DNA from: Terebella lapidaria
Taxonomy: Eukaryota; Annelida; Polychaeta; Terebellida; Terebellidae
Reading direction: 5' to 3'
NCBI GenBank assembly: GCA_949152475.1
Contig: OX424570.1
Coordinates: 62,001-126,000, forward strand
DNA length: 64,000 bases
Below the pieces are notes generated by a model, which did not search any database, was not told the origin of the DNA, and saw only the letters and a program-made list of their open reading frames with translations. Made by a program: the position numbers and the translations under genes. Below, one piece after another: positions 14,086 to 64,000 of the stretch (position 1 is its first letter; every line of letters starts with the position of its first letter).

Positions 14086-14290
14086 TGCAAAATAAACATG
14101 TTTTTTCTCTCTACCACCTTCCCCCCCCCCCCCCCCCTCATCCCCGCTCCTGTCCAAACCATACATACAGCCCAGCCTGTATGTAGCCCCTAACACCCCT
14201 CCGTTGCCCGAATCAGACAGTCAGCTCTCAGAATGGGCTTGGAATCGCAAGGTTTCTGGACAAGGAGAAGACCTTCCGTAGCTGCACAAT
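14086..14290. other. Spacer with poly-C run
   Basis: A 17-base C run at 14121-14137 and a small hairpin ACATACAG...CTGTATGT near 14160-14182. No gene is recognised. Confidence 0.4.
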
Positions 14291-16262
14291 CACAATGTCC
14301 AGCTTGTTCCACCTATCTCATTGTATTGCTCGCGGTGCTTCAGCTATCTACTTGTCAGGGTGAGTACACAGAGTCACAATGTCCAGCTTGTTCCACCTAT
14401 CTCATTGTATTGCTCGCGGTGTGCTTCAGCTATCTACTTGTCAGGGTGAGTACACACAGTCACAATGTCCAGCTTGTTCCACCTATCTCATTGTATTGCT
14501 CGCGGTGCTTCAGCTATCTACTTGTCAGGGTGAGTACACACAGTCACAATGTCCAGCTTGTTCCACTTGTCTCATTGTATTGCTCGCGGTGCTTCAGCTA
14601 TCTACTTGTCAGGGTGAGTACACACAGTCACAATGTCCGGCTTGTTCCACCTATCTCATTGTATTGCTCGCGGTGCTTCAGCTATCTACTTGTCAGGGTG
14701 AGTACACACAGTCACAATGTCCAGCTTGTTCCACCTATCTCATTGTATTGCTCGCGGTGCTTCAGCTATCTACTTGTCAGGGTGAGTACACACAGTCACA
14801 ATGTCCAGCTTGTTCCACTTGTCTCATTGTATTGCTCGCGGTGCTTCAGCTATCTACTTGTCAGGGTGAGTACACACAGTCACAATGTCCAGCTTGTTCC
14901 ACCTATCTCATCTTTGAATTGCTCGCGGTGCTTCAGCTATCTACTTGTCAGGGTGAGTACACACAGTCACAATGTCCAGCTTGTTCCACTTGTCTCATTG
15001 TATTGCTCGCGGTGCTTCAGCTATCTACTTGTCAGGGTGAGTACACACAGTCACAATGTCCGGCTTGTTCCACCTATCTCATTGTATTGCTCGCGGTGCT
15101 TCAGCTATCTACTTGTCAGGGTGAGTACACACAGTCACAATGTCCGGCTTGTTCCACCTATCTCATTGTATTGCTCGCGGTGCTTCAGCTATCTACTTGT
15201 CAGGGTGAGTACACACAGTTACAATGTCCAGCTTGTTCCACCTATCTCATTGTATTGCTCGCGGTGCTTCAGCTATCTACTTGTCAGGGTGAGTACACAC
15301 AGTCACAATGTCCAGCTTGTTCCACCTATCTCATCTTTGAATTGCTCGCGGTGCTTCAGCTATCTACTTGTCAGGGTGAGTACACACAGTCACAATGTCC
15401 GGCTTGTTCCACCTATCTCATTGTATTGCTCGCGGTGCTTCAGCTATCTACTTGTCAGGGTGAATACACACAGTTACAATGTCAAGCTTGTTCCACCTAT
15501 CTCATTGTATTGCTCGCGGTGCTTCAGCTATCTACTTGTCAGGGTGAGTACACACAGTTACAATGTCCAGCTTGTTCCACCTATCTCATTGTATTGCTCG
15601 CGGTGCTTCAGCTATCTACTTGTCAGGGTGAGTACACACAGTCACAATGTCCGGCTTGTTCCACCTATCTCATTGTATTGCTCGCGGTGCTTCAGCTATC
15701 TACTTGTCAGGGTGAGTACACACAGTTACAATGTCCAGCTTGTTCCACCTATCTCATTGTATTGCTCGCGGTGCTTCAGCTATCTACTTGTCAGGGTGAG
15801 TACACACAGTCACAATGTCCGGCTTGTTCCACCTATCTCATTGTATTGCTCGCGGTGCTTCAGCTATCTACTTGTCAGGGTGAGTACACACAGTTACAAT
15901 GTCCGGCTTGTTCCACCTATCTCATTGTATTGCTCGCGGTGCTTCAGCTATCTACTTGTCAGGGTGAGTACACACAGTCACAATGTCCAGCTTGTTCCAC
16001 CTATCTCATTGTATTGCTCGCGGTGCTTCAGCTATCTACTTGTCAGGGTGAGTACACACAGTCACAATGTCCAGCTTGTTCCACCTATCTCATTGTATTG
16101 CTCGCGGTGCTTCAGCTATCTACTTGTCAGGGTGAGTACACACAGTCACAATGTCCAGCTTGTTCCACCTATCTCATTGTATTGCTCGCGGTGCTTCAGC
16201 TATCTACTTGTCAGGGTGAGTACACACAGTCACAATGTCCAGCTTGGCCCACTTGTCTCATT
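14291..16262 (+). repeat. 84-bp minisatellite, about 23 units
   Basis: The unit contains CACAATGTCCAGCTTGTTCC, ATTGTATTGCTCGCGGTGC and TCAGGGTGAGTACACACAGT, and copies are nearly identical. Because 84 is divisible by three and the unit lacks stops in two forward frames, it creates two open frames of roughly 650-690 codons with a 28-residue period. A 2-base difference in an early unit (about 14421) shifts the frames relative to each other. The reading frames look like a by-product of the repeat, not a gene. High copy similarity suggests recent expansion. Confidence 0.9.
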
Positions 16263-16330
16263 GTATTTCTCGCCAAAATGGATGTCATTCCTGACAAGCA
16301 TATTATAAATGTTATAGGTTAATTAGTATT

Positions 16331-18108: not shown

Positions 18109-18523
18109 GTAGTCCGCTCCAAACAGTGAGGGGAGGGGGTCAAAGAGTTTTTTAAAATAAATAACTGTGTCAACATTATCTAGAGCTTCAAAATGATATA
18201 TGTTATAGAGTAACTGTTCAGCATCCTAAAACTGAAAAGAAAATAGCGGGTTACCGTATCCGTTCTCATGGAAAACACGATGCAAGATGTGAATATGGAC
18301 GAAAAAATGTGCAAAAATGCCAGAATTTATTTCATTTTAGGTAAATATGTGTGATTTTGATCGAATATGTAGAAGAAACGAGCACGGTGACCCCCTATTT
18401 TCTTTTCAGTATTAGGATGCTGATCATTTACTCTATAAAATAATGTCATTTTGAAGAGATAATATTCAAGAAATGACTTTTAAATTTTGACTCTCCGTTA
18501 CCTCCATGTTTGTAGCGGACTAC
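18109..18523. mobile_element. Fold-back element, ~415 bp
   Basis: The ends GTAGTCCGCTCCAAACA and TGTTTGTAGCGGACTAC are inverted repeats. Further in, AGCATCCTAAAACTGAAAAG pairs with CTTTTCAGTATTAGGATGCT, and GAAAATAGCGGG with CCCCCTATTTTC. Almost the whole element could fold into one long imperfect hairpin. A clear target duplication was not found. Confidence 0.6.
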
Positions 18524-18542
18524 GTTAACTGCAGCCCTCCAG

Positions 18543-20620
18543 ATGCATGACCGCACTGCCCATCCAACCCCTGCTCAACCCACGCCACAGAAGCTCAAAT
18601 TGGATCCCCCAACAGTCGCGTCAGGCTGTGATCCGGAGCAGTGGTCAGCTTTCAAGAGACAATGGAACATGTACGAAGTCGGCATGGGTATCAATAATAC
18701 CATGCTCCCAACTGCCCTGTTTTACTGCTGCGACGCAGATCTTCGTACAGATGTCATGAGAGACATCCGTGGAGATGTCGCTAACATGACTGAGGCTAAG
18801 CTCCTTGGTGCCATCAAAAGGCTGGCTGTAAAAGATGGAAGCACCCTTGTCCATCGCATGAAACTGAATAGAATGACCCAGTCACCTGGAACAAGCATTC
18901 ACACTTTCCTGGTCAGTCTTCGAGGTCAGGCTTCCCTTTGTCAATGTAAAGTTATTGACTATCGTCCGCTCTTCGGGATCCTCGAGGATAGTCCTCTCAC
19001 CGCGAGTCCTTGCGGACGCGCATCCGCTATTCCGGATCCTTGCGGCGGCGCCGCTCACCGGAGGTCACTGCGGACACGGTAACCACTCTAGCATTTACGG
19101 TAACCAGGTAACAGCCCACCCGACACGCCCAGGCCTACGGACACCGTTCAGAAACTGGTTCATCACCACGGTGTTAGCTGGAGGGGCCTGGCGAGCCGCG
19201 GTCTGCCTCGGGGACGGAACCCCGTACAGTCCGACGAACTGGCCAGAGCCTATGTCACACCGTCCCGGGAAGGGAGAGAACTGGCGATCCACAGGGCTTG
19301 TGCCCCCGAGTCAGCAACTTGTCTCTCCCAGCCCGGGCCCCCCTATGGAAATCGTCCCCAGGGCTCTAAGAGCCTACTACTCGTGACTAGGGAACTCAAA
19401 GCTCATGGCGAGCTTCGAGTGCAGCCTATCACCCGACCATGGACAATCTCCTCGACCGAGTCGCTCCCAGTGTATATATAATACACCAGAAACTAGAGGC
19501 TGCACGCGAAGCGTAATCAAACCATTGTTATAGTTTACTGGATAACGTAAATTACAATGCGTCGCCGTAGCAACGCCCGCTCGAACGGAGCATGTCAAAA
19601 CAAGGCCAAGACAGAAAAGGCCACACAAATGGCATGTAGTTTTACAATCACCTGCCGCGATCTTAGGGCAAAATCGCCACATCAATATGTACAAAAAGTG
19701 TCAGGAACCAGGGTGCACACATGAGTTTGACTTCAGTAATGAATGAGATAATCAAGGACAACTTGGTGAGAGGAATCGCTGATCCAGAGATCTTTTCCGA
19801 CTTGTTGGGTGATCCCAAAAGTGATCGGACACTGGAGGAGATTGTCTCCTTCATCGCCCAGAAGGAACAGGGCAAGATGACACAAGGTGCCGTCGGAATC
19901 TCTGCTAGTGCCACAAGTAATGCTTCACAACCAGCGCCTTCCTCTGGAGCAAAGTGCTGGGCATGTGGTGGCCCGTCTCATGGGCAGAGAAATGACCGGA
20001 GGGCACGATCCAAGCACTGCGAGGCCTGGACATTCAAGTGTGCTAAATGTGCTGTTAGAGGTCATTTCACCACATCATGCAGCAAGTGTGGTGCTTGCGG
20101 TAAATGGGGTCATCGTGACAAGACCTCCCGTGTGTGCACCCAGAACAGCTCTCACAAGAACACTGCAAAGTCAAACGCCTCGGTGAGTGCAACCCAAGAA
20201 GCCCCATCAGTCCAGAACAGTGTCGTCTTTGATCAGTTGTGCACATCTGCAGAGGACAGATCCAACAAGTCAACAGGCATTGAGCACCATATTTTTGATG
20301 GAGAATGGGTAGCAAGGCCCTCTGAACCACACCCTGTCGTCACAGTCACCATGACACTGCAACCACATGATCATGCCTCATTCGGCCATCCCATAGAGAA
20401 CACCAGCCAGCTAGCATCAGTCACGCTGCCGATGGTGGCAGACACAGGGTGCCAAAGCTCCATCATACCGTTGAAATCTGCTTGCATGATGGGGATCAGG
20501 AAACAGGACCTAATCCCAGTGAAACTGGTCATGCACGGAGCAATCAGGGAGAACCTTGGAGTCATTGGCGGTGTCGCTGCCAATGTGACATTGAAGTTCA
20601 CACAAATGATCTTGCTTGGT
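18543..20620 (+). mobile_element. LTR-retrotransposon fossil: gag and protease part
   Basis: The left part resembles a retrotransposon gag/capsid region. The right part has zinc-knuckle-like Cys/His clusters (CWACGGPSH near 19960, then CAKCAVRGHF and CSKCGACGKWGH) and an aspartic-protease-like motif ADTGCQSSIIP near 20440-20472. This order fits a Ty3/Gypsy-like or BEL-like element; the family is not resolved. Reverse transcriptase, RNase H, integrase and LTRs are absent. It is broken and carries at least one large insertion. Its right end merges into a family A tail. Moderately old. Confidence 0.7.
18957..19688. other. GC-rich insert in the retrotransposon fossil
   Basis: About 730 bases clearly richer in G+C than their surroundings, starting near CTATCGTCCGCTCTTCGGG and containing a TATA-like AGTGTATATATAATAC at about 19469-19484. 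It interrupts the gag-like region. It could be a solo LTR or another mobile element; no matching copy exists in the window and no target duplication is clear. Confidence 0.45.
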
Positions 20621-20790
20621 AAATCTCAAGGTCATATGACCTAATCGCTTGAACCCAGATATATCTTTGTATTATGAACATATAGAAAATCAAAATCAAA
20701 CGTACATATAATAGTGACATTGAAGTTCACACAGATGATGCCATGGCCGAACCAAAATTGTCTGGTAACCTATCTTGGCCTTTGGGCTAA
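20621..20790 (+). mobile_element. Family A 3' tail
   Basis: It contains GTAAATCTCAAGGTCATATG, ATATATCTTTGTATTATGAA and the 3' end TTGTCTGGTAACCT plus a hairpin ending GGGCTAA at 20790. It is continuous with the right edge of the retrotransposon fossil, which suggests the fossil was inserted into, or replaced part of, this element. Confidence 0.65.
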
Positions 20791-20894: not shown

Positions 20895-21176
20895 AGGTTA
20901 CCAGACCTATGGTCCGATAACCTATTGCTGTGGCGTTGCGTCTGGCGTCCGTCCGTCCGTCCAGCCGGCCGTCCGGCCGTCCGTCCATCCGTCGTCGTCG
21001 TCCGTCCGTCCACATTTTAGGTTACCGGATCTATGGTCCGATAACCTATTGCCATGGCGTTGCGTCCGTCGTCCGTCCGTCGTGCGTAAACAATTTTATC
21101 TTTAAAGTTTACAATCGGATTTTTCTGAAATTTTGCACAAAAATGCCTAAAAATATTTCGAGAGGGAGGTATTTTT
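20895..21176 (+). mobile_element. Two stacked family A 5' ends, outer layers of the nest
   Basis: Palindromes start at 20895 (AGGTTACCAGACC) and 21019 (AGGTTACCGGATC), each followed by GTCC/GTC microsatellite. The second was interrupted at its AGGTATTTTT by the element starting at 21177. Its body probably resumes at 40446 and ends near 42323. The first may end at 42886. Confidence 0.55.
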
Positions 21177-43863: not shown

Positions 43864-44016
43864 TACCTGCCGTTGCTCCCGATTGCTTTGAAGTTGAAGT
43901 TTTTGTAGTTGGTTTTTTCAACGGTGGAGAACATTTCCACTAGAAGATGTGCCAGGTGTGGCTTTTACTTGTTAGGCATCCCGATTGAAAATCGGGAGGC
44001 CTTATGTTTTTGTCTG

Positions 44017-47310: not shown

Positions 47311-49318
47311 AAAGGGGTATCTTCACGTGGGCGCACAGCAGGGGTATCTCACCGGTATCTCAACGTCTCGGCGTGGGCGCACCGCAGAGGTATCTCACCC
47401 GGTATCTGGATGTCTCGGCATGGGCGCACCGCAGGGGTATCTCACCTGGTATCTCGACGACTCGGCGTGGGCACACTGCAGGGGTATCTCGCCCGGTATC
47501 TCACCCGGTATCTCACCTGGTATCTCGACGTTTCGGCGTGGGCGCACTGCAGGATCTCACCCGGTATCTCGACGTCTCGGTGTGGGCGCACCGCAGGGGT
47601 ATCTCACCCGGTATCTCGACGTCTCGGCGTGGGCGCACCGCAGGGGTATCTCACCCGGTATCTCGATGTCTCGGCGTGGGCGCACCGCAGGGGTATCTCA
47701 CCCGGTATCTCGATGTCTCGGTGTGGGCGCACAGCAGGGGTATCTCACCCGGTATCTCACCCTGTATCTCACCTGGTATCTCACCTGGTATATCGACGTT
47801 TCGGCATGGGCGCACCACAGGGGTATCTCGCCCGGTATCTCGACGTCACGGTATGGGCGCACCGCAGGGGTATCTCACCCGGTATTTCACCCGGTATCTC
47901 ACCTGGTATCTCGACGTCTCGGCGTGGGCGCACCAAAGGGGTATCTCACCCGGTATCTGGACGCCTCGGCGTGGGCGCACCAAAGGGGTATCTCACCCGG
48001 TATCTGGACGTCTCGGCGTGGGCACACCGCAGGAGAATCTCACCCGGTATCTTGACGTCTCGGCGTGGGCGCACCACAGGGGTATCTCACCCGGTATCTC
48101 AACGTGGGTGCACCGCACGTGTATCTCACCTGGTATCTCGACGACTCGGCGTGGGCGCACCGCAGGGGTATCTCACCCGGTATCTCGACGTCTCTGCATG
48201 GGCTCACCGCAGGGGTATCTCACCCAGTATCTCGATGACTCGGCATGGGCGCACCGCAGGGGTGTCTCACCCGGTATCTCGACGACTCGGCGTGGGTGCA
48301 CCGCAGGAGTATCTCACCCGGTATCTCGACGTCTCGGCGTGGGCGCAGGGCAGGGGTATCTCACCCGGTATCTCGACGTCTCGGCATGGGCCACCCCAGG
48401 GGTATCTCACCCGGTATCTCGACGTCTCGGCATGAGCGCACAGCAGGGGTATCTCACCCGGTATTTGACGTCTCGGCGTGGGCCACCGCAGGGGTATCTC
48501 ACCCGGTATCTCAACGTGGGCGCACAGCAGGGGTATCTCGACCGGTATCTCGACGTCTCGGCGTGGGCACACCGCAGGAGAATCTCACCCGGTATCTTGA
48601 CGTCTCGGCGTGGGCGCACCACAGGGGTATCTCACCCGGTATCTCGACGTGGGTGCACCGCACGTGTATCTCACCTGGTATCTCGACGACTCGGCGTGGG
48701 CGCACCGCAGGGGTATCTCACCCGGTATCTCGACGTCTCTGCATGGGCTCACCGCAGGGGTATCTCACCCAGTATCTCGACGACTCGGCATGGGCGCACC
48801 GCAGGGGTGTCTCACCCGGTATCTCGACGACTCGGCGTGGGTGCACCGCAGGAGTATCTCACCCGGTATCTCGACGTCTCGGCGTGGGCGCAGGGCAGGG
48901 GTATCTCACCCGGTATCTCGACGTATCGGCGTGGGCACACCGCAGGGGTATCTCACCCGGTATCTCAACGTGGGCGCACAGCAGGGGTATCTCACCCGGT
49001 ATCTCGACGTCTCGGTGTGAGCGCACCGCAGGGGTATCTGACCCGGTATCTCGACGTCTCGGCGTGGGCGCACCGCAGGGGTATCTCAACCGGTATCTCA
49101 ACATCATGGCGTGAGCGCACCGCAGGGGTATCTCACCCGGTATCTCGACGACTCGGCGTGGGCGCACCGCAGGGGTGTCTCACCCGGTATCTCGACGTCT
49201 CGGCGTGGGCGCATCACAGGGGTATCTCACCCGGTATCTCGACCACTCGGCGTGGGCGCACCGCAGGGGTATCTCACCCGGTATCTCGACGTCTCGGCGT
49301 GGGCGCACCGCAGGGGTA
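47311..49318 (+). repeat. 47-bp minisatellite, roughly 43 units
   Basis: The unit contains GTCTCGGCGTGGGCGCACCG and CAGGGGTATCTCACCCGGTA, then TCTCGAC; the word GTCTCGG repeats at 47-base spacing (47621, 47668). Unit length is not divisible by three and the unit lacks stops, so long open frames exist in several frames, including a 709-codon one. These are by-products. Blocks of several units repeat (48045-48370 resembles 48590-48915), a higher-order duplication. The last unit runs into the reverse-transcriptase fossil. Confidence 0.9.
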
Positions 49319-50350
49319 TCACGACGACTGGCTGATAATGGCAGCGGATCAGCACACGGTGGCTTCCCACACAGATCTGATTGTCCATCTCTGTCAGCGT
49401 ATAGGATCAATTTCAATCTGACCTACTTCGGCCCAGCGAGTCACCTATCTTGGGATGTACATTGACACGCAGTTCTTCCTGACATGACCGACGGAAGACC
49501 ATATTCATCAGTTACGCGGAGTGCTATAGTCTTTTTCCGTCAGTGTCCCTGTCGCGGTGATGACCTTCCTGCGACTCCTGGGTCACATGAATTCGCTGGA
49601 GAAGATTGTCTCGGGTGCTTGGTTACGAATGCGGACGATTCAGTTTCACCTCAAGGACCACTGGGACGCGGATCAAGACCTAGCGATCCGATTCATGAAT
49701 TAGAGCTGGGGAGAGTCAAGCCTCCGGTCTCTGGGACGGCCAGCGACCTGCTTCACTACGTCAACTGGCTGGAACTCAGGCTGTCTGTCTGGGTCTGCGA
49801 CACCTACAGCAGACAATACCCGGTTCCACAATCCTTGTCATGTTTGGCAACACAATGGTCGTCGGGTATATCAAGAACCAGTGGGGAGGACACGGTCAAG
49901 GGAGCTCAGCACCTTGACACACAAGACTTCTGGCTCGACATATTCCAGGTTCCCTGAAACACCATCGCTGACGCTCTGACTTGGAAGGGGTCGGTGTCAT
50001 CGAATTGGTTTCTGAATCCTCGAGTATGCAGTCGCCTCTGGCGCCTTTGGGGTCAGCCTCTCCTGGACCTGTTTACCACGATCCAGAACAATCGGCTACA
50101 GCTCTACGTCTCCCCGTTCCCGGACCTTCATGCCCGGGCGGTTAACACGCTCGCTCTGGACTGGTCCGGCCTCTGGGCGTACATTATTCCACCGTTCTCA
50201 CTGATTTCCATGGTTCTGCAGAGAACTCGGTCGAATCCTGCCCAGATCATTCTGATTGCTCCCAACTGGCCGGCCAAGCCATGGTTTCCGGAGCTCCTAG
50301 ACCTCACAGGGTGTAATCAGTCAGCCGGTACTGTGGGGAGAACCAGCTGA
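49319..50350 (+). mobile_element. DIRS-like retrotransposon fossil: RT end and RNase H region
   Basis: The left edge has a YxDD-type box (YHDDWLI, near 49316-49336) typical of reverse transcriptase. The rest carries blocks like those of DIRS/Ngaro polymerases: a WLxxFxVP-like stretch, a DLFTTIQNNRLQLYVSP motif near 50068-50120 and the IAPNWPAKPWFPELLDL motif near 50253-50302. Tyrosine recombinase and most of the reverse transcriptase are absent. The fossil is broken with several breaks, moderately old, and lies between inverted terminal-repeat sequences. Confidence 0.7.
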
Positions 50351-52869: not shown

Positions 52870-53031
52870 GCCAGTTTGTGCGACCTTTGCCAGTTCAGCC
52901 ATCTTGGCAGTGTCCCCCAGACATGTACCAGTGTAAACATGCGGTGTTCGTACCTGAATGTATCCCCTATGACCTCGTGTGTAACGGGAATACCGATTGT
53001 TCTGACGGGTCGGATGAGGGGCCCTCTTGTC
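52870..53031 (+). CDS. LDL-receptor class A (LDLa) module exon
   Basis: A 162-nt open exon between an acceptor (TCTCTATTTGCAG, ending 52869) and a donor (C then GTAAGT at 53032). Both junctions fall after the first base of a codon (phase 1-1), the usual form of shuffled LDLa exons. It encodes a linker, then one full LDLa module with six cysteines (QC, QC, EC, VC, DC, SC) and the acidic calcium-binding box DCSDGSDE. Such modules bind ligands in extracellular receptors and matrix proteins. Other exons of a host gene are not seen in this window. The exon stands alone among repeats and is followed by an array made from its own 3' half. It may be a true exon of a large gene or a captured, non-functional copy; I cannot tell which. 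Confidence 0.65.
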
Positions 53032-54840
53032 GTAAGTATATTGTTGGCATGTTAAGGTCGTACCTTCTCCCAGGACCTCGTGTGCAACGGGAATCCCGAT
53101 TGTTTTGACGATCGGATGAGGGCCCTCTTGTCGTAAGTATATTGTTGGCATGTTAAGGTCGTACCTTCTCCCAGGACCTCGTGTGTAACGGGAATCCTGA
53201 TTGTTCTGACGGGTCGGATGAGGGGCCCTCTTGTCGTAAGTATATTGTTGGCATGTGGCGGTCGTACCTCCTCCCAGGACCTCGTGTGTAACGGGAATCC
53301 CAATTGGTCTGACGGGTCGGATGAGGGGCCCTCTTGTTGTAAGTATATTGTTGGCATGTTAAGGTCGTACCTCCTCCCAGGACCTCGTGTGTAACGGAAA
53401 TCTCGATTGTTCTGACGGGTCGGATGAGGGGCCCTCTTGTTGTAAGTATATTGTTGGCATGTGACGGTCGTACCTCTTCCCAGGACCTCGTGTGTAACGG
53501 GAATCCCGATTGTTCTGACGGGTCGGATGAGGGCCCTCTTGTCGTAAGTATATTGTTGGCATATGAAGGTCGTACCTCCTCCCAGGACCTCGTGTGTAAC
53601 GGGAATCCCGATTGTTCTGACGGGTCGGATGAGGGGTCCTCTTGTTGTAAGTATATTGTTGGCATGTGACGGTCGTACCTCCTCCCAGGACCTCGTGTGT
53701 AACGGAAATCTCGATTGTTCTGACGGGTCAGATGAGGAGTTTTCTTGTTGTAAGTATATTGTTGGCATGTGACGGTCGTACCTCTTTCGTGGACCTAGTG
53801 TGTAACGGGAATCCCGATTGTTCTGACGGGTCGGATGAGGGGCCCTCTTGTCGTAAGTATATTGTTGGCATGTGACGGTCGTACCTCCTCCCAGGACCTT
53901 GTGTGTAACGGGAATCCCGATTGTTCTGACGGATCGGATGAGGGGTCCTCTTGTTGTAAGTATATTGTTGGCATGTGACGGTCATACCTTCTCCCAGGAC
54001 CTCGTGTGTAACGGAAATCTCGATTGTTCTGACGGGTCGGATGAGGGGTCCTCTTGTTGTAAGTATATTGTTGGCATGTGACGGTTGTACCTCCTCTCAG
54101 GACCTCGTGTGTAACGGGAATCTCAATTGTTCTGACGGGTCGGATGAGGGGCCCTCTTGTTGTAAGTATATTGTTGGCATGTGACGGTCGTACCTTCTCC
54201 CAGGACCTCGTGTGTAACAGGAATACCTATTATACTGACGGGTCGGATGAGGGGTCCTCTTGTTGTAAGTATATTGTTGGCATGTGACGGTCGTACCTTC
54301 TCCCAGGACCTCGTGTGTAACGGGAATACCTATTATACTGACGGGTCGGATGAGGGGCCCTCTTGTTGTAGGTATATTGTTGGCATGTTAAGGTCGTACC
54401 TTCTCCCAGGACCTCGTGTGTAACGGGAATCCCGATTGTTCTGACGGGTCAGATGAGGGGTCCTCTTGTCGTAAGTATATTGTTGGCATGTGTAGGTCGT
54501 ACCTCCTTCCAGGACCTCGTGTGTAACGGGAATCCCAATTGTTCTGACGGGTCGGATGAGGGGCCCTCTTGTCGTAAGTATATTGTTGGCATATGAAGGT
54601 CGTACCTCCTTCCAGGACCTCGTGTGTAACGGGAATCCCGATTGTTCTGATGGGTCAGATGAGGGTCCCTTTTGTCGTAAGTATATTGTTGGCATGTGAC
54701 GGTCGTACCTCCTCTCAGGACCTCGTGTGTAACGGGAATACCGATTGTTCTGAGTGGTCGGATAAGGGGCCCTCTTATCGTAAGTATATTGTTGGCATGT
54801 GACGGTCGTACCTCCTCCCAGGACCTCGTGTGTAACGGGA
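53032..54840 (+). repeat. 103-bp array of partial LDLa exon plus donor and acceptor
   Basis: About 17 units. Each has a 61-nt piece (GACCTCGTGTGTAACGGG ... CCCTCTTGTC) equal to the 3' end of the exon at 52870, then 42 bases starting GTAAGTATATTGTTGGCATG and ending CTCCCAG. Each unit thus looks like a mini-exon between splice-site-like words. The 42-nt spacer is short for an animal intron. If one unit were spliced after the phase-1 donor, the frame would read CGA CCT CGT GTG TAA, an early stop. Variation among units is modest. No evidence of expression. Confidence 0.85.
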
Positions 54841-55293: not shown

Positions 55294-57200
55294 AGGTTAC
55301 CGGACCTATGGTCCGATAACCTATTGGCATGGCGTTGCGTCCGTCGTCCGTCGTCCGTCGTCGTCGTCCGTCGTCGTCCGTCGTCGTCGTCGTCCACATT
55401 TTTATCTTTTTTGTTTACGATCGAATTCTTCTGAAATTTTACACAAAAATAGTTAAAAATAATTCAAGAAGGAGGTATTTTTTAGTTTTTTGATTTTCGC
55501 ATTTTTTTCAAAATGGCGGCCGTTTTCGACGAAAAATGCCTGATTTTGGACTTTGGTAGCCATTTTCTCAAAATCTGTTCAGTAACTTTTTTTCTTTTTC
55601 ATACATAACACTCCTCATATGTACTCCTATGATGTCTATAAATTTCATTGCGCTTGAATCGCTCGAAGTGGGCCATTTTGGCCCAAACTCGGCCCAAATG
55701 GGACTTTCCCATGTTAAATTCTCCTATGCTTTATAATGGGACACATTATGCCTAATATCTCGCTTAATATTGAGATTAGAGACTAGGGATCAATTGTGGA
55801 CATATAGGAAATGATATATGCTGAATATTCTCGTGACCTTGAATTTGACCTCTGACCTCAATTTCAAGGTCAGAGCTTAAAATGGCTGATATCTCGCTTA
55901 TTATCGACTCTACAGCTTAGGAATCAATTGTGGACATATAGGAAATGATATATGCTGAATATTCTGATGACCTTGAATTTGACCTTTGACCTCATTTTCA
56001 AGGTCACAGGACAAAATGGCTAATATCTCATTTATTATCGACTCTACAGCTTAGGAATCAATTGTGGACATATAGGAAATGATATATGCTGAATATTCTG
56101 ATGACCTTGAATTTGAACTTTGACCTCATTTTCAAGGTCACATGACAAAATGGCTAATATCTCGCTTATTATCCACTTTACAGCTTAGGAATCAGTTGTG
56201 AACATATAGGAAATGATATATGCTGAATATTCTTGTGACCTTGAATTTGAACTTTGACCTCATTTTCAAGGTCACATGACAAAATGGCTAATATCTCGCT
56301 TATTATCCACTTTACAGTTTAGGAATCAATTGTGAACATATAGGAAATGATATATGCTGAATATTTTCGTGACCTTGAATTTGACCTTTGACCTCATTTC
56401 CAAGGTCACAGGACAAAATTGCTAATATCTCGCTTATTATCGACTTTACAGCCTAGGAATCAATTGTGAACATATAGGAAATGATATATGCTGAATATTC
56501 TCATGACCTTGAATTTGACCTTTGACCTCATTTCCAAGGTCACAGGACAAAATTGCTAATATCTCGCTTATTATCGACTTTACAGCTTAGGAATCAATTG
56601 TGAACATATAGGAAATGATATATGCTGAATATTCTCATGACCTTGAATTTGACCTTTGACCTCATTTTCAAGGTCACAGGACAAAATGGCCAATATCTTG
56701 CTTATTAGCGCCTTTACAGCTTAAAAATCAATTGTGAACATATAGGAAATGATATATGCTGAATATTCTAGTGACCTTGAATTTGACTTTTGACCTCATT
56801 TTCAAGGTCAACAGGACAAAATGGCTAATATCTCGCTTATGATCGACTTTACAGCTTAGGAATCAATTGTGAACATATAGGAAATGATATATTCTGAATA
56901 TTTTAATGATATTGAATTTGACCTTTGACCTAAATTTCAAGGTCAGTCATTTTATTTTCAAAGTCAGATTACAAAATGGCTTATATCTCGTTTATTATCA
57001 AATTTACAGCTTAGGGGTCCATAGTGAACATATTGGAAATGATGTATGCTGAATAGTTTGGTGATCTAGAATTTAACCTTTGATCCCATTTTCAAGGTTA
57101 GAGATATGGCGATTTCAGTGGTCACCTTGAATTTGACCTTCAACTTTCTCGGCTTAACTCTGTATATTTCTCCGGTAACCTTTCTAGCCCATTGGGCTAA
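55294..57200 (+). mobile_element. Family A element, complete
   Basis: 5' palindrome AGGTTACCGGACC/GGTCCGATAACCT, long GTC microsatellite (to 55393), one body unit (CAAAATGGCGGCCGTTTTCG at 55510), about nine ~134-bp array units, and 3' CTCCGGTAACCTTTC with hairpin TAGCCCATTGGGCTAA at 57200. Each array unit carries TGACCTTTGACCT-type motifs. Confidence 0.8.
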
Positions 57201-57205
57201 TTTTT

Positions 57206-57482
57206 AGGTTACCGGACCTATGGTCCGTAACCTATTGGCATGGCGATGCGTCCGGCGTCGTCATCATCGTCCGTCGTCGTCCGTCAACAATTTTATCTCT
57301 AAAGTTTAAGATCGAATTTTTCTGAAATTTTGCACAAAAATGCCTAAAAATATTTCGAGAGGGAGGTATTTCTTAGTTTTTTGATTTTCGCATTTTTTTC
57401 AAAATGGCGGCCGTTTTCGTCGAAAAATGGCCAATTTTGGACTTTGGCGGTCGTTTTCTCAAAATCTGTTCAGTAACTTTTT
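57206..57482 (+). mobile_element. Family A 5' portion
   Basis: It starts five T's after the previous 3' end (AGGTTACCGGACC/GGTCCGTAACC). The body runs to TTCAGTAACTTTT, where a family C element is inserted. Its 3' part is not in the window. Confidence 0.7.
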
Positions 57483-57557
57483 ACTTGACGAAATCAAAGA
57501 TTTTGTCAAGTATGTTGATTGGTTCCGTTTGTTTGTTTGTATGTATGTTTGTTTGTT
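57483..57557 (+). mobile_element. Family C 5' end (C1), split in its GTTT repeat
   Basis: Palindrome ACTTGACGAAATC-aaa-GATTTTGTCAAGT, then TATGTTGATTGG and a GTTT/GTAT repeat. Another family C element begins inside this repeat at 57558. The same subfamily end recurs at 61130. Confidence 0.7.
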
Positions 57558-59791
57558 ACTTGGCGAAATCTTCGATTTTCGCCAAGTATGTTGGTCACTC
57601 GCGGATGTTTGTCTGTTTGTTTGTTTGTTACCTCTCTAGCCGCCACAGTTTTGAAGCTAACCTTTCGAAATTTTTTCGATGGATAGGTATTCGCCCAAGT
57701 ACGAAGCCGCACGTTTTTGAAAAAAATCAGTTCATTGATGACGTCACCAAAAATTCTTGAAAATTCGCCAATGATGGGAGATAGGGATTTTGTGTTTGTT
57801 TTTGCCTCTCTAACGGCCACAGTTTTCATGCTAACATCCCGAAATTTTTTTGGTGGATAGGTATTTGGCCAAGGACGGGACCGCGCGTTTTTGAAAAAAA
57901 ATCGGCATATTGATGACGTCACCAAAAATTCTTAAAAACTCGAAAAATCCCTATCTCTCATCATTGGCGAATTTTAAAAAAATCGCAGAGCAGTCAAATT
58001 TGAACTGATAGTTCTGACATTTGGTACACTGATATGCGTTAGTATTATCCATCATACCTTGAAGTTTTACATGGATCGGTTGAAGGACGATGACGTCATG
58101 ACGTAAAACGTCAATTTTTTAAAATGGGGCTATATCTCGGAAAATATTCGTCGTACAGAGAAGCGGATTGCACCACTGGAAAGCTCGTTGAATTCTGGTT
58201 TAGGTGGGTACTGTCCGATACTTTTCCGCCATGATAGATTTTCCGCTATGACGTCATAAACGTAAGGCCTGTCATACCAGTTTTTCGATTTTTCAGCGAA
58301 ATTTCAAACATCCACAGTTCACTCAAGTTTGAAGGTACTGGACTGTAATTATGAGAACGTATGTGAAACTTTATTACCCAGCCATATTCTGAGTTTCAAC
58401 ACGCTACGTGCAACGTCAATGACGTCATGACGTAAAACGTCAAATTTCAAAATGGAGCTATATATCGAAAAGTATTCGTCGTAAAGAAAAGCGGATTGCA
58501 CCATTGGAAAGCTCGTTGAATTCTGGTTTAGGAGGGTACTGTTCGATACTTTTCCGCCATGATAGATTTTCCGCTATGACGTTATAAACGTAAGGCCTGT
58601 CATACAAATTTTTCGACTTTTCAGCAAACTTTCAAACAACCACAGTGCACTTAATTTTGAAGGTAATAAATGGTAATTATGAGAACGTATGTGGAACTTT
58701 ATTACCCAGCCATGCACCGAGTTTCAACACGCTACGTGCAACGTCAATGACGTCATTACGTAAAACGTTAAATTTTAAAATGGAGCTATAAATCGGGAGG
58801 TATTTGTCATACAGAAAAGCGGATTGCACCATTGGAAAGCTCGTTGAATTCTGGTTTAGGAGGGTACTGTCCGATACTTTTCCGCCATGATAGATTTTCC
58901 GCTATGACGTCATAAACGTAAGGCCTGTCATACAAATTTTTCGACTTTTCAGCAAACTTTCAAACAACCACAGTGCACTCAATTTTGAAGGTAATAAACT
59001 GTAATCATGAGAACGTATGTGAAACTTTATTACACAGCCATATACCGAGTTTCAACACGCTACGTCTAACGTCAATGACGTCATGACGTAAAACGTCAAT
59101 TTTCAAAATGGAGCTATATGTCGAGAGGTATTTGTCATACAAAGAAGCGGATTATACCACTGGAAAGCTCGTTGAATTCTGGTTTAGGTGGGTACTGTCC
59201 GATACTTTTCCGCCATGATAGATTCTCCGCTACGACGTCATAAACGTAAGGCCTGTCATACTAGTTTTTCGATTTTTCAGCGAAATTTCAAACATTCACA
59301 GTGCACTCAAATTTGAAGGTACTGGACTGTAATTATGAGAACGTATGTGAAACTTTATTATCCAGCTATATACCGAGTTTCAACACGCTACGTGCAACGT
59401 CAATGACGTCATGATGTAAAACGTCAAATTTCAAAATGGAGCTATATATCGGGAGGTATTTGTCGCACAGAGAAGCGGATTGCACCAATCGAAAGCTCGT
59501 TGAATTCTGGTTTAGGAGGGTACTGTCCGATACGTTTCTGCCCTGATAGATTTTCCGCTATGACGTCATAAACGTAAGGCCTGTCATAAATGTTTTTTTC
59601 GACTTTTCAGCAAACTTTCAAATATCCACAGTGCACTCAAATTTAAAGGTATTGAACTGTAATTATGAGAACCTATATGAAATATTAATATACAGCGATA
59701 TATCAAGATTCATTCAATTATGCTTAAAGTAGGCCACGTCTGTAGAAAAAGATTTCGACAAGTTTGGCCTTTAGGCCAATGGTATCTCGTT
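57558..59791 (+). mobile_element. Family C element (C2), complete
   Basis: 5' palindrome ACTTGGCGAAATC-ttc-GATTTTCGCCAAGT, GTTT/GTCT repeat, two ~150-bp units (CCTCTCTARCSGCCACAG at 57630 and 57806), the 328-bp array, then the 3' inverted copy GATTTCGACAAGT, hairpin TTGGCC-ttta-GGCCAA and end ATGGTATCTCGTT. The next element starts at once. Non-coding. Confidence 0.7.
58080..59710 (+). repeat. ~328-bp tandem array, 5 units
   Basis: CGTAAGGCCTGTCATA recurs at 58260, 58588, 58918, 59245 and 59573. Each unit has TGACGTCATGACGTAAAACG (58091, 58420 and on) and a second GACGTCATAAACG, plus GGAAAGCTCGTTGAATTCTG. Confidence 0.9.
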
Positions 59792-61125
59792 ACTTGCCGG
59801 AATCTAAAGATTTCGGCAAGTATGTTGGTTCGTTCGTGCATTTGTGGATGTGTTTGTTTGTTTGTTTACAAAAAAACGTCCACATTTCTTATTTGATTTC
59901 GCTCAAACTTGGTGTGCATAGTCCCTAGTATACCGGGCAGAAAACGTCCTATTTTGGTGTGTCTAGGTCAAAGGTCAAGGTCAAGGTCAAGCAAAACGTC
60001 GAAAACACATAAGTGGCCATAACTTCGGTTCTAATAGTCCTAGAGACTTCAAATCAAGTTTATATTGTAGATAAACTCGAGTTCTATCTTTCTTGACCTT
60101 GACCTTGACATTTGACCTTGACCTTGAGAAGTTCGCCTGAGGTCGAATATTTGACCTTGGAGGTCACCTCCTCCGATTTTCGATCTGATGCTTGGAAACG
60201 ATGTGGGACCGGTCCCTCATGCTCAATGTCAATTTTTAGCCCGATCGGCCAATTCGTTATGACGTAATTGACGTTTCTATGGCAACGAAATCGGCCCCAT
60301 TATAAGCGAAATTGCATGTTTCAAGCTGTCGATGCTGATGAAAGCGTCAATAATGTGCGCAAAAATCTGATAATACACCAGTTTATAGCCAAGGATAAGT
60401 TCTTTCGTTCCAGAAACTTTCAATGTCAAAGGTCGAAAGTCAAGGTCAATATTGACCTGCAAGTGAAAACCATGTGGTTCACTATATCTCAGGAACTAAG
60501 CAAGATAGAGACACGAAAGTAAACCCACAGTATTGCACTCACTTAGCCTAACAACTTTTGCATTTACACCTAAGGCGTCTGACCGATAGCCTTTGCAAGC
60601 GCCTGAGGTCGAAGCTGACCTCAAAAATGACCTTGACTTTGACCATTTGCAAAAATATCGAGTAGTAGCTCGTTTGAAAGGTCTTCGAGAGTATTTTCCA
60701 AATATGTTGTCATTTTTGGAATCGGACGTCAATTGACGTCATAATGACGTCAAATGTGATTTCAGACTGACTTTTAGGCCCTTTGAATGTCAGAGGTGCG
60801 AAGTTATAACATTTACTGCATATCTAGCATATGTAAACGATGTGGAGTCGTCCTGTGATGGTCTCTATCAACTTTTAGCACAATCGATATATCCGTTTTG
60901 ACGTAATTGACGTTTTTGTGGCAACAAATCGGTACAATTTCAGAGGAAACTCATCAATTGAAGATACTATGATCTTGTCCGTTATAATATAACATATATG
61001 AACACGATTTTTTCATGCATATTTAAAAATTCCATTCACAGTAAGTTTGCAGTAAATAATTGACGACAAATGACGTCATAATTGCGTACTCATTCCGGCA
61101 AGTGTGTGGCCTATGGCCTCTCGTT
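59792..61125 (+). mobile_element. Family C element (C3), complete
   Basis: 5' palindrome ACTTGCCGGAATC-taaa-GATTTCGGCAAGT, GTTT repeat, and a core with AGGTCAAAGGTCAAGGTC (59965) and its inverse near 60098. 3' inverted copy ATTCCGGCAAGT (61093-61104), hairpin GTGGCC-tat-GGCCTC and CTCGTT. The core is shared with C5 and with 62567-63300. Confidence 0.7.
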
Positions 61126-61129
61126 TGTT

Positions 61130-61180
61130 ACTTGACGAAATCAAAGATTTTGTCAAGTATGTTGATCGGTTCCGTTTGTT
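61130..61180 (+). mobile_element. Family C 5' end (C4)
   Basis: Palindrome ACTTGACGAAATC-aaa-GATTTTGTCAAGT and TATGTTGATCGGTTCCGTTT, split at TTTGTT by C5. It probably resumes at 62567 (TGTATGTTTGTTTG). Confidence 0.65.
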
Positions 61181-62566
61181 ACTTGCCGGAATTTAAATTC
61201 CGGCAAGTATGTTGGTCGGTTGGTTTGTGGATTTGTGTGTGTGTTTGTTTGTTTGTTTGTGCGCGCTCTAGCGTCCACAATTCTTCAAAAATTCGTGTGC
61301 ATATTCTCTAGGATAATGGCCAAAAAACGTCCTATTTTGGAGTGTCTAGGTCAAAGGTCAAGGTCAAGGTCAAGCAAAACGTCGAAAACACATAAGTGGC
61401 CATAACTTCGGTTCTAATGGTCCTAGAGACTTCAAATTAAGTTCATATTGTAGATAAGCTCGAGTTCTGTCTTCTGTGACCTTGACCTTGACATTTGACC
61501 TTGACCTTGATAAGTTCGCCATGAGGTGAATGTCAAGGTCAAGTACGAAGGTCAGCGAATCATATCGAGTAGTATATCGTTGGAAAGGTCTTGGCCCCCT
61601 GATTGCAGTGATACCTTATTTTCGGCGCTGCGACGTACACTGACGTCACAATGACGTCATAAACGTCAAATTTCCGAAATTTCAAAAGGCCATAACATCG
61701 TCAATACTTTATGGAATCTCTTAAAACTTGATGTGCATATTGACAGTAATGACCTCTAGTAACTAAAGTACAAAGGTCAAAGGTCAAGGTCAAGGTCATC
61801 GAAATCCCAGAAAAACACGTTTCCGGTAATAACATCCATATGAATTGTTGTAGGTTCATGAAATTCGAACCATATCATTCAGAAGAGACATAGCAATCGA
61901 GCGTATATGTCAATTTCATGATTGACCTCGAACTTGGTCAGGAAAATAAGGTCATATGAGGAAAACTTCAAGGTCAAATTTCAAAACTAACTGAAACCTA
62001 TCAAGTAGTATATCAAATGAAAGGTCTTGACTTCCTGGTACATACTTTCTCATCAGTTTGGAGATGTGACGTTTATTGACGTCACAATGACGTCATAAAC
62101 GTAATTTTTTTGAACTTTCAAATGGTCATAGTGTCCACAAACCTTGTTCGATTCTGATGGAATTATACAAGTAAATATATGTTTTCATACACAGACAATG
62201 CACAATTTTCGTGACTCAAGGTCAAAGGTCGAGGTCAAGGTCAAGAGAAAGGTCAAAATCACTTAAATGGCCATAACTTCGGAACTAATCGTCGCAGAGA
62301 GTTCAAACTAAGGCCATATTGTGGCATATCAAAAGGCCTTTCATGAGTGACCTTGAATGTGACCTTTGACCTTGACCTTGAGAGGTTCGCCACAAGTCAA
62401 TATCAAGGTCGAGTACAAAGTTCAGTGCACCATATTGAATAGGATACAGTTGGAAACATCAGTGCACCATATTGAATAGGATACAGTTGGAAATTTCAAA
62501 TTCATTGAAACCTGTCAAATATCATGAGTATGCGCTCCGGCAAGTGGGTGCCCTAGGGGCTCTCGT
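61181..62566 (+). mobile_element. Family C element (C5), complete, inside C4
   Basis: The 5' end ACTTGCCGGAATTT/AAATTCCGGCAAGT is a perfect 28-base palindrome. It is followed by a GTTT repeat, a core with AGGTCA-rich blocks (61349, 61478) and CRE-like TGACGTCACAATGACGTCAT (61641), and the 3' inverted copy CTCCGGCAAGT (62535), hairpin GTGCCCTAGGGGC and CTCGTT. Confidence 0.7.
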
Positions 62567-63829: not shown

Positions 63830-64000
63830 ACCAAAGGTCCTGTGCATGCACCAGATATCCGTTTGTTACTTGTTTGTTTGTCACCTCTCTGGCGGCCACA
63901 GTTTTTGTGCTAGCATCTCAAAACTTTTTTGATGGAAAGGTATTCGCCCAAGGACGGAACAGCACGTTTTTGAAATAATTCGGTTCATTGATGACGTCAC
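63830..64000 (+). mobile_element. Family C2-like body, runs off the window
   Basis: TTTGTTTGTCACCTCTCTGG, GCCACAGTTTTT and GATGACGTCAC match 57620-57745 of C2. The 5' palindrome is incomplete (TTACTTG only at 63856). Confidence 0.6.

Follow-up and report, generated by a model that had tools for sequence, protein, structure and literature searches.

Hairpins at the 5′ ends of transposable elements have been described before. In the Helitron2 group, the 5′ asymmetrical terminal inverted repeat (ATIR) pairs with bases downstream of it to form a 5′ hairpin, and compensatory mutations between two related elements, Helitron-1N1_CQu and Helitron-1N2_CQu, preserve both the ATIRs and the hairpin (PMC3627910). 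It was suggested in the same paper that pairing of the 5′ and 3′ ATIRs undoes the 5′ hairpin and ends replication. We compare with this and related systems a window of 64,000 nucleotides from the polychaete Terebella lapidaria (assembly GCA_949152475.1, contig OX424570.1, positions 62,001 to 126,000, within which all coordinates below are counted). Five hairpins in the window, C1 to C5, belong to one family (family C), and a second family (family A) serves as a comparator. The anatomy of family C bears out a preliminary description of the window in which they were called HINE/Helentron-like: its hairpins are very probably the 5′ ends of non-autonomous Helitron2/Helentron elements of the HINE or DINE-1-like kind. 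We take PMC3627910 to be the work of Bao and Jurka (2013) and PMC4067079 that of Thomas and Pritham (2014).

Family C can be likened to Cg_HINE of Crassostrea gigas (Vojvoda Zeljko et al. 2020; PMC7492417) by described anatomy, not by sequence. Both have a 5′ subterminal inverted repeat (subTIR; 11–12 bp in Cg_HINE), a complementary inverted repeat (IR; 1–12 bp further on in Cg_HINE), a microsatellite (mostly of 4-nt units there), central satellite-like repeats, a 3′ subTIR, a 3′ palindrome (seen by eye in family C) and a preference for T-rich or TT sites; Cg_HINE makes no target-site duplication. DINE-1 of Drosophila (PMC2374699, PMC4067079) shares with family C the subTIRs (13-bp in DINE-1), an IR beside the 5′ subTIR, a microsatellite, central repeats and a 3′ stem-loop (putative in family C), but DINE-1 differs in possessing a conserved core of ~90 bp and in an IR that is only partial, whereas the IR of family C is nearly complete. 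The 3′ stem of DINE-1 varies among species, and compensatory mutations were inferred in 2008 (PMC2374699); palindromic subTIRs are described in mite and Culex elements (PMC4067079). In Fusarium oxysporum, FoHeli1 and FoHeli2 have hairpins at both ends, with stems that differ between them, and copies with multiple 5′ ends are ascribed to self-insertion, which resembles the double heads C1/C2 and C4/C5 described below (PMC5148889). FoHeli differs in being fungal, in having autonomous copies and in its target (TNAT then A, or T in a figure legend), and a microsatellite or satellite core is absent from its description in the passages cited. The Helitron2 elements of PMC3627910 come from other species and have other sequences, and their group includes RepHel-encoding elements, whereas no such protein turned up here in the 10 of 36 open frames scanned. 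Canonical Helitron1 (5′ TC, 3′ CTRR, A/T insertion, no 5′ hairpin) does not fit the ends of family C (TT followed by ACTTG, and CTCGTT), its T-rich target or its 5′ hairpin.

In each family C head, a subTIR (ACTTGNCGRAAT) is succeeded by a nearly perfect reverse complement of itself, so that the head can fold back; in C2, C3 and C5 a third, inverted copy lies just before what by eye is a short 3′ palindrome. The five heads lie where the preliminary description had placed them and are of the types it gave, with the outer seven bases of the two arms in agreement in 5/5, and the C5 end is indeed a perfect palindrome. Every head begins directly after TT, although the T run obscures the precise 5′ boundary; downstream of each head come TATGTTG and then a GTTT array. 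As single DNA strands, all five hairpins outfold every one of 200 shuffles each (z −5.7 to −7.7), the tests of C1 and C4 being tests of one sequence. A scan of the whole window for 13-base arms with no more than one mismatch returned 37 hairpin rows, overlapping registers counted apart, which comprise 11 from the five C heads, 18 from nine family A heads and 8 from other places. Eight Markov-simulated windows, used as controls instead of shuffles, returned 0 to 4 rows each. Because folding beats the shuffles and the scan rows lie far above those of the simulated windows, the hairpins are not a product of chance. A search with the fixed 28-base pattern matched C5 alone among the heads, and also 10819 with one mismatch. 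Neither the C nor the A head pattern had a match in the viral contig collection; one match to the C pattern in a genome contig titled Desulfosporosinus is ascribed to chance, its free position 6 being unpaired.

The remaining anatomy agrees with this identification (Table 1). The tails of C2, C3 and C5 (59750–59791, 61092–61125 and 62535–62567) all follow one order: the left arm repeated in inverted orientation, then a short palindrome, then CTCGTT. Features of Helitron2/HINE elements found here are the 5′ subTIR, 0–4 nt from the 5′ end, the 5′ hairpin (5/5 in family C; 16/16 in family A, with a defect), the inverted 3′ subTIR (three tails, one of them mismatched at position 6), a left-module microsatellite (five GTTT arrays, one to each C element, that of C4 interrupted by C5), central tandem repeats (the 328-bp repeats of C2; those inside C3 and C5 are diverged only) and a T-rich or TT target (a TTTT site for C1, the GTTT array for C5). 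At the edge of the window, positions 63861–64000 are 83.7% identical to the left module of C2 (57607–57747) and pass from ACTTG directly into TTTG repeats; this is perhaps a sixth C copy that has lost its hairpin.

Table 1. Coordinates of the family C and family A features in the window
Feature	Position	Strand	Remarks
C1 5′ hairpin	57483–57511	+	subTIR and complementary arm, ACTTGAC type; sits within T run
C2 5′ hairpin	57558–57587	+	ACTTGGC type; inner stem slipped by one base
C3 5′ hairpin	59792–59821	+	ACTTGCC type; one G.T pair (pair 9)
C4 5′ hairpin	61130–61158	+	same letters as C1
C5 5′ hairpin	61181–61208	+	perfect 28-base palindrome; nested inside C4 microsatellite
GTTT microsatellite of C1	57527–57538	+	C2 head lies behind
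GTTT microsatellite of C2	57615–57626	+	
GTTT microsatellite of C3	59852–59867	+	
GTTT microsatellite of C5	61243–61258	+	
C2 central tandem repeats	58090–59682	+	328-bp unit, 4.8 copies
3′ subTIR behind C2	59750–59763	+	13/14 match to 5′ arm; mismatch is position 6
C2 3′ palindrome TTGGCC-TTTA-GGCCAA	59764–59779	+	2/200 shuffles fold equally well
C3 3′ subTIR	61092–61103	+	equals first 12 bases of 5′ arm
C3 3′ palindrome GGCC-TAT-GGCC	61108–61118	+	weak: 32/200 shuffles fold equally well
C5 3′ subTIR	62535–62545	+	equals first 10 bases of 5′ arm
C5 3′ palindrome GCCC-TAG-GGGC	62550–62560	+	113/200 shuffles fold equally well
C4 continuation beyond C5	62566–63285	+	82.3% identical to C5 body, 725 aligned columns
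Family A head (AGGTTACCGGACC..), one of 16	57206–57234	+	right arm without one base
Family A 3′ subTIR (CCGGTAACC), one of several	57172–57180	+	

The insertion sites are informative in two cases. C1 occupies a T-rich target, TCAGTAACTTTT, of which 15 copies are present on the plus strand when up to one substitution is allowed: 11 are headless, 3 carry a family A head and 1 carries C1. This T run is a local insertion hot spot, with occupied copies at 57470, 21581, 28821 and 34609. C5 is nested in the microsatellite of C4 and splits that element, C4-like sequence picking up right past the C5 3′ end. This is the sole insertion visible from both sides, and the GTTT array leaves a few bases ambiguous with respect to a target-site duplication. 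Since C5 lies in the C4 array and C4 sequence resumes after it, the C4–C5 double head is an insertion into the element's own microsatellite, and the C1–C2 double head probably arose likewise.

The preliminary description had emphasized that the two arms co-vary, with paired changes in independent copies. The hairpins of C1 and C4 are identical (1/51 bases differ once the flank is included), and there are therefore only four distinct hairpins. Across their 12 pairs, 8 are invariant, 2 have changed on both sides, pair 8 has changed in one arm alone, and the remaining pair shows an unpaired cell. The doubly changed pairs are pair 6 (C-G, A-T or G-C), at which the arms agree in all five heads, and pair 9 (A-T, G-C and a G-T wobble); G.T pairs occur in three of the five heads (pair 8 of C1 and C4, pair 9 of C3). 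When the 3′ letters of the four distinct hairpins were shuffled, two doubly changed pairs were reached in 163/500 trials and the covariation score in 17/500, or in 127/500 and 9/500 if C1 and C4 are counted apart by their flanks; kinship alone, with no structure, can lift sequences above such shuffles.

Kinship among the copies bears on their independence. Three C bodies can be aligned (C3, C4 and C5), too few to give a branching order. In a 187-site core, C3 and C5 are identical at 172 sites, C5 and C4 at 165, and C3 and C4 at 159; in hand-chosen stretches of ~280–300 bases the corresponding values are 229/269, 221/282 and 198/279. The grouping of C3 with C5 is a modest one because BLAST pieces, which are of unequal extent and from different parts of the bodies, put C3–C4 first (87.2% over 188, against 83.9% over 330 for C3–C5 and 82.3% over 725 for C5–C4). 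C2 has a different body, without a place in this comparison: past its microsatellite region it has no BLAST match to those of C3, C4 or C5. By these body and flank identities, the two ACTTGCC heads belong to the most similar pair of bodies, and the two ACTTGAC heads are near-identical. Pair 6 requires at least two changes, and no pair state is demonstrated to have arisen twice. Co-variation thus stands at two pairs, but not as repeated compensation in independent copies; in this small sample from one window the variants reflect a few subfamilies, an outcome that the preliminary description had itself named as telling against its proposal.

The co-varying letters are not confined to the hairpin. 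In two of the three elements with a tail, C3 and C5, the third, inverted copy tracks the head's change across a distance of more than 1 kb, and both 3′ copies end in CCGGCAAGT, as previously reported. The 3′ copy of C3 equals the left arm over 12 bases that include pair 9, where the hairpin partner differs. In C2, agreement with the hairpin partner holds for 11 bases, after which the stem slips; the 3′ copy agrees at 13/14. In family C, then, the change also appears in a copy that lies beyond the hairpin.

Family A, which has the same plan as family C with a different sequence, is the comparator. Its 16 heads are plus-strand rows; minus-strand rows, mostly the same hairpins reversed plus tails, were left out. 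In 14/16 the hairpin partner places an A opposite C, and in the other 2/16 that base is deleted. Left-arm changes are present in 5/16 heads, none with a matching change in the right arm, and no pair is changed on both sides among the 11 distinct head rows. With stems defective and left-arm changes unmatched, pairing is not strictly kept in family A, and these changes may reflect decay after insertion. When 3′ subTIRs were located by anchoring on the 3′ palindrome, 12 of the 15 proved perfectly complementary to the commonest left arm; one more differs from it by a single mismatch, and the remaining two by two mismatches each. The predicted duplex energy is stronger for 5′–3′ pairing than for the hairpin arms in 13/13 tails, all set against one head.

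These 13 tails are from a first search, which favours matching tails and gave 23 plus-strand rows as well as six minus-strand rows that were left out. The plus-strand rows left out are the right arms of heads (3786, 21038, 21352, 28579 and 28853), two diverged tails (38874 and 42295) and others (12694, 19097 and 40363). The palindrome-anchored search landed on 16 places (29 rows when each register is counted separately). Besides those 13 it picked up the two diverged tails and 60238, a chance match with no tail; its anchor came from tails already recognized and may overlook further ones. The family A 3′ subTIR at 20762 and the nearby head at 20895 have a common variant (GGTTACCAG) with the hairpin partner unchanged, which could be due to shared descent or to two CpG decays. 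Elsewhere, at 43974–44002, a hairpin of the same plan with one mismatch follows GTT and precedes TATGTTTTTGTCTG and a T-rich stretch; it may represent a head belonging to a third HINE-like family.

The best explanation overall, and one we consider likely, is that these are Helitron2/HINE ends. The mechanism by which the ends would be read and the arms would come to co-vary is offered more tentatively, as a possibility somewhat short of an even chance. An enzyme supplied by an autonomous partner elsewhere would nick at the TT beside the 5′ subTIR, displace one strand and halt at the 3′ subTIR and palindrome. Pairing of the 5′ and 3′ subTIRs may undo the 5′ hairpin and so mark the end, as proposed in PMC3627910. 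The subTIR would drift between subfamilies while its copies, serving as end signals, are kept alike, so that the arms of the hairpin would appear to co-vary.

Several observations weigh against this explanation. C5 favours the hairpin, since its hairpin partner is perfect over 14 bases and its 3′ copy over 10. Behind C2, the complementary strand of the 3′ copy has ACTTGTCGAAATCT, which departs from the ACTTGGCGAAATCT of the head at position 6; as this is the co-varying position, the mismatch speaks against a strict three-way rule. Predicted duplex energies are indecisive in family C: 5′–3′ pairing exceeds that of the hairpin arms in C3, roughly equals it in C2 and falls short of it in C5, and this mixed comparison is not counted as support. 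The 3′ palindromes are visible by eye in all three C tails, but folding beats most shuffles in one, the other two being matched by many (32 and 113 of 200). No tail of C1 or C4 was seen within the window, and no Rep/helicase was found: Pfam scans of 10 of the 36 open frames that reach 110 aa gave no match at 0.001.

It was originally proposed that the folded hairpin itself, rather than its primary sequence, is required, so that only copies able to pair would move and compensations would be selected. Pair 6, which stays paired in all five heads across three pair types, and the compensatory mutations between the two CQu elements (PMC3627910) are what this proposal predicts, and sliding the partner lowers the paired cells to no more than 51%, from 97–98%, although a structure derived from the same sequences exceeds slid versions anyway. 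We nevertheless regard it as doubtful: there are only four distinct hairpins, about a third of the shuffles equal their doubly changed pairs, the distant 3′ copy changes as well and matches the C3 left arm where the hairpin partner fails, and family A combines unmatched left-arm changes with defects in 16/16 stems.

A mutational origin of the co-change seems somewhat less likely still. Template switching, or foldback copying, within a quasi-palindrome could rewrite one arm in a single event with no selection for folding, and it has been argued that such events can yield multi-base compensations in stems (PMC8794818). The several symmetric differences that separate C5 from C3 together, and the perfect palindrome of C5, are in keeping with such copying, and rolling-circle replication, if these elements use it, would expose the single strands. 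The process leaves unexplained why C3 and C5 carry the same letters in 3′ copies so far away, and it sits poorly with the G.T pairs in three C heads and the C.A mismatch in 14 family A heads. The near-identity of C1 and C4, the few variants and the weak statistics might also suit a history with no constraint at all, in which palindromes copied recently from a handful of source elements differ by chance, but this is highly improbable, as the same plan returns with a different sequence in family A and again in published families.

Position 6 of the subTIR (A, G or C in the heads, T in one 3′ copy) might mark subfamily identity, a conjecture to which we give little credence. Were it true, each set of hairpin and 3′ copy would answer to a transposase of its own, and element lineages that exclude one another would live side by side in one genome and at a single microsatellite hot spot.

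Other features of the window include three tandem arrays. An 84-bp repeat at 14285–16273 (23.6 copies, 96% matches) contains two stop-to-stop open frames (652 and 704 aa), which stay open because the unit is a multiple of three. A 47-bp minisatellite at 47326–49320 (42.5 copies) has an open frame of 711 aa. The 103-bp unit repeated 18.2 times at 52971–54840 contains CNGNPDCSDGSDEG, which by eye resembles what we take to be part of a low-density lipoprotein (LDL)-receptor class A repeat. Open frames at 18516–20644 resemble what is presumably a retroelement gag with zinc knuckles; four of these gag-like frames were scanned against Pfam, with no match at 0.001.

The notion that a co-varying 5′ hairpin is unusual finds no support in the literature. 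It is a stated feature of Helitron2, compensatory mutations included (PMC3627910), and the 5′ hairpin has parallels in FoHeli (PMC5148889), in the subTIRs of mite and Culex elements (PMC4067079) and in the IR of Cg_HINE (PMC7492417). Because the hairpin and its compensatory changes are already in print, the family C hairpins are a good instance of the published pattern, and with their matched changes they are an example of a known phenomenon, not a new one. They add one further genome whose Helitron2/HINE ends bear a matched 5′ hairpin, which by itself is little. More useful is the contrast within a single window between family C, in which the arms are nearly matched, and family A, in which the stems are defective in 16/16 yet the 5′–3′ repeats are exact in 12/15 tails. 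This contrast suggests that likeness among the repeats may count for more than folding, and, extended to many copies, it could probe the idea put forward in 2013 that replication ends when the 3′ repeat displaces the 5′ hairpin.

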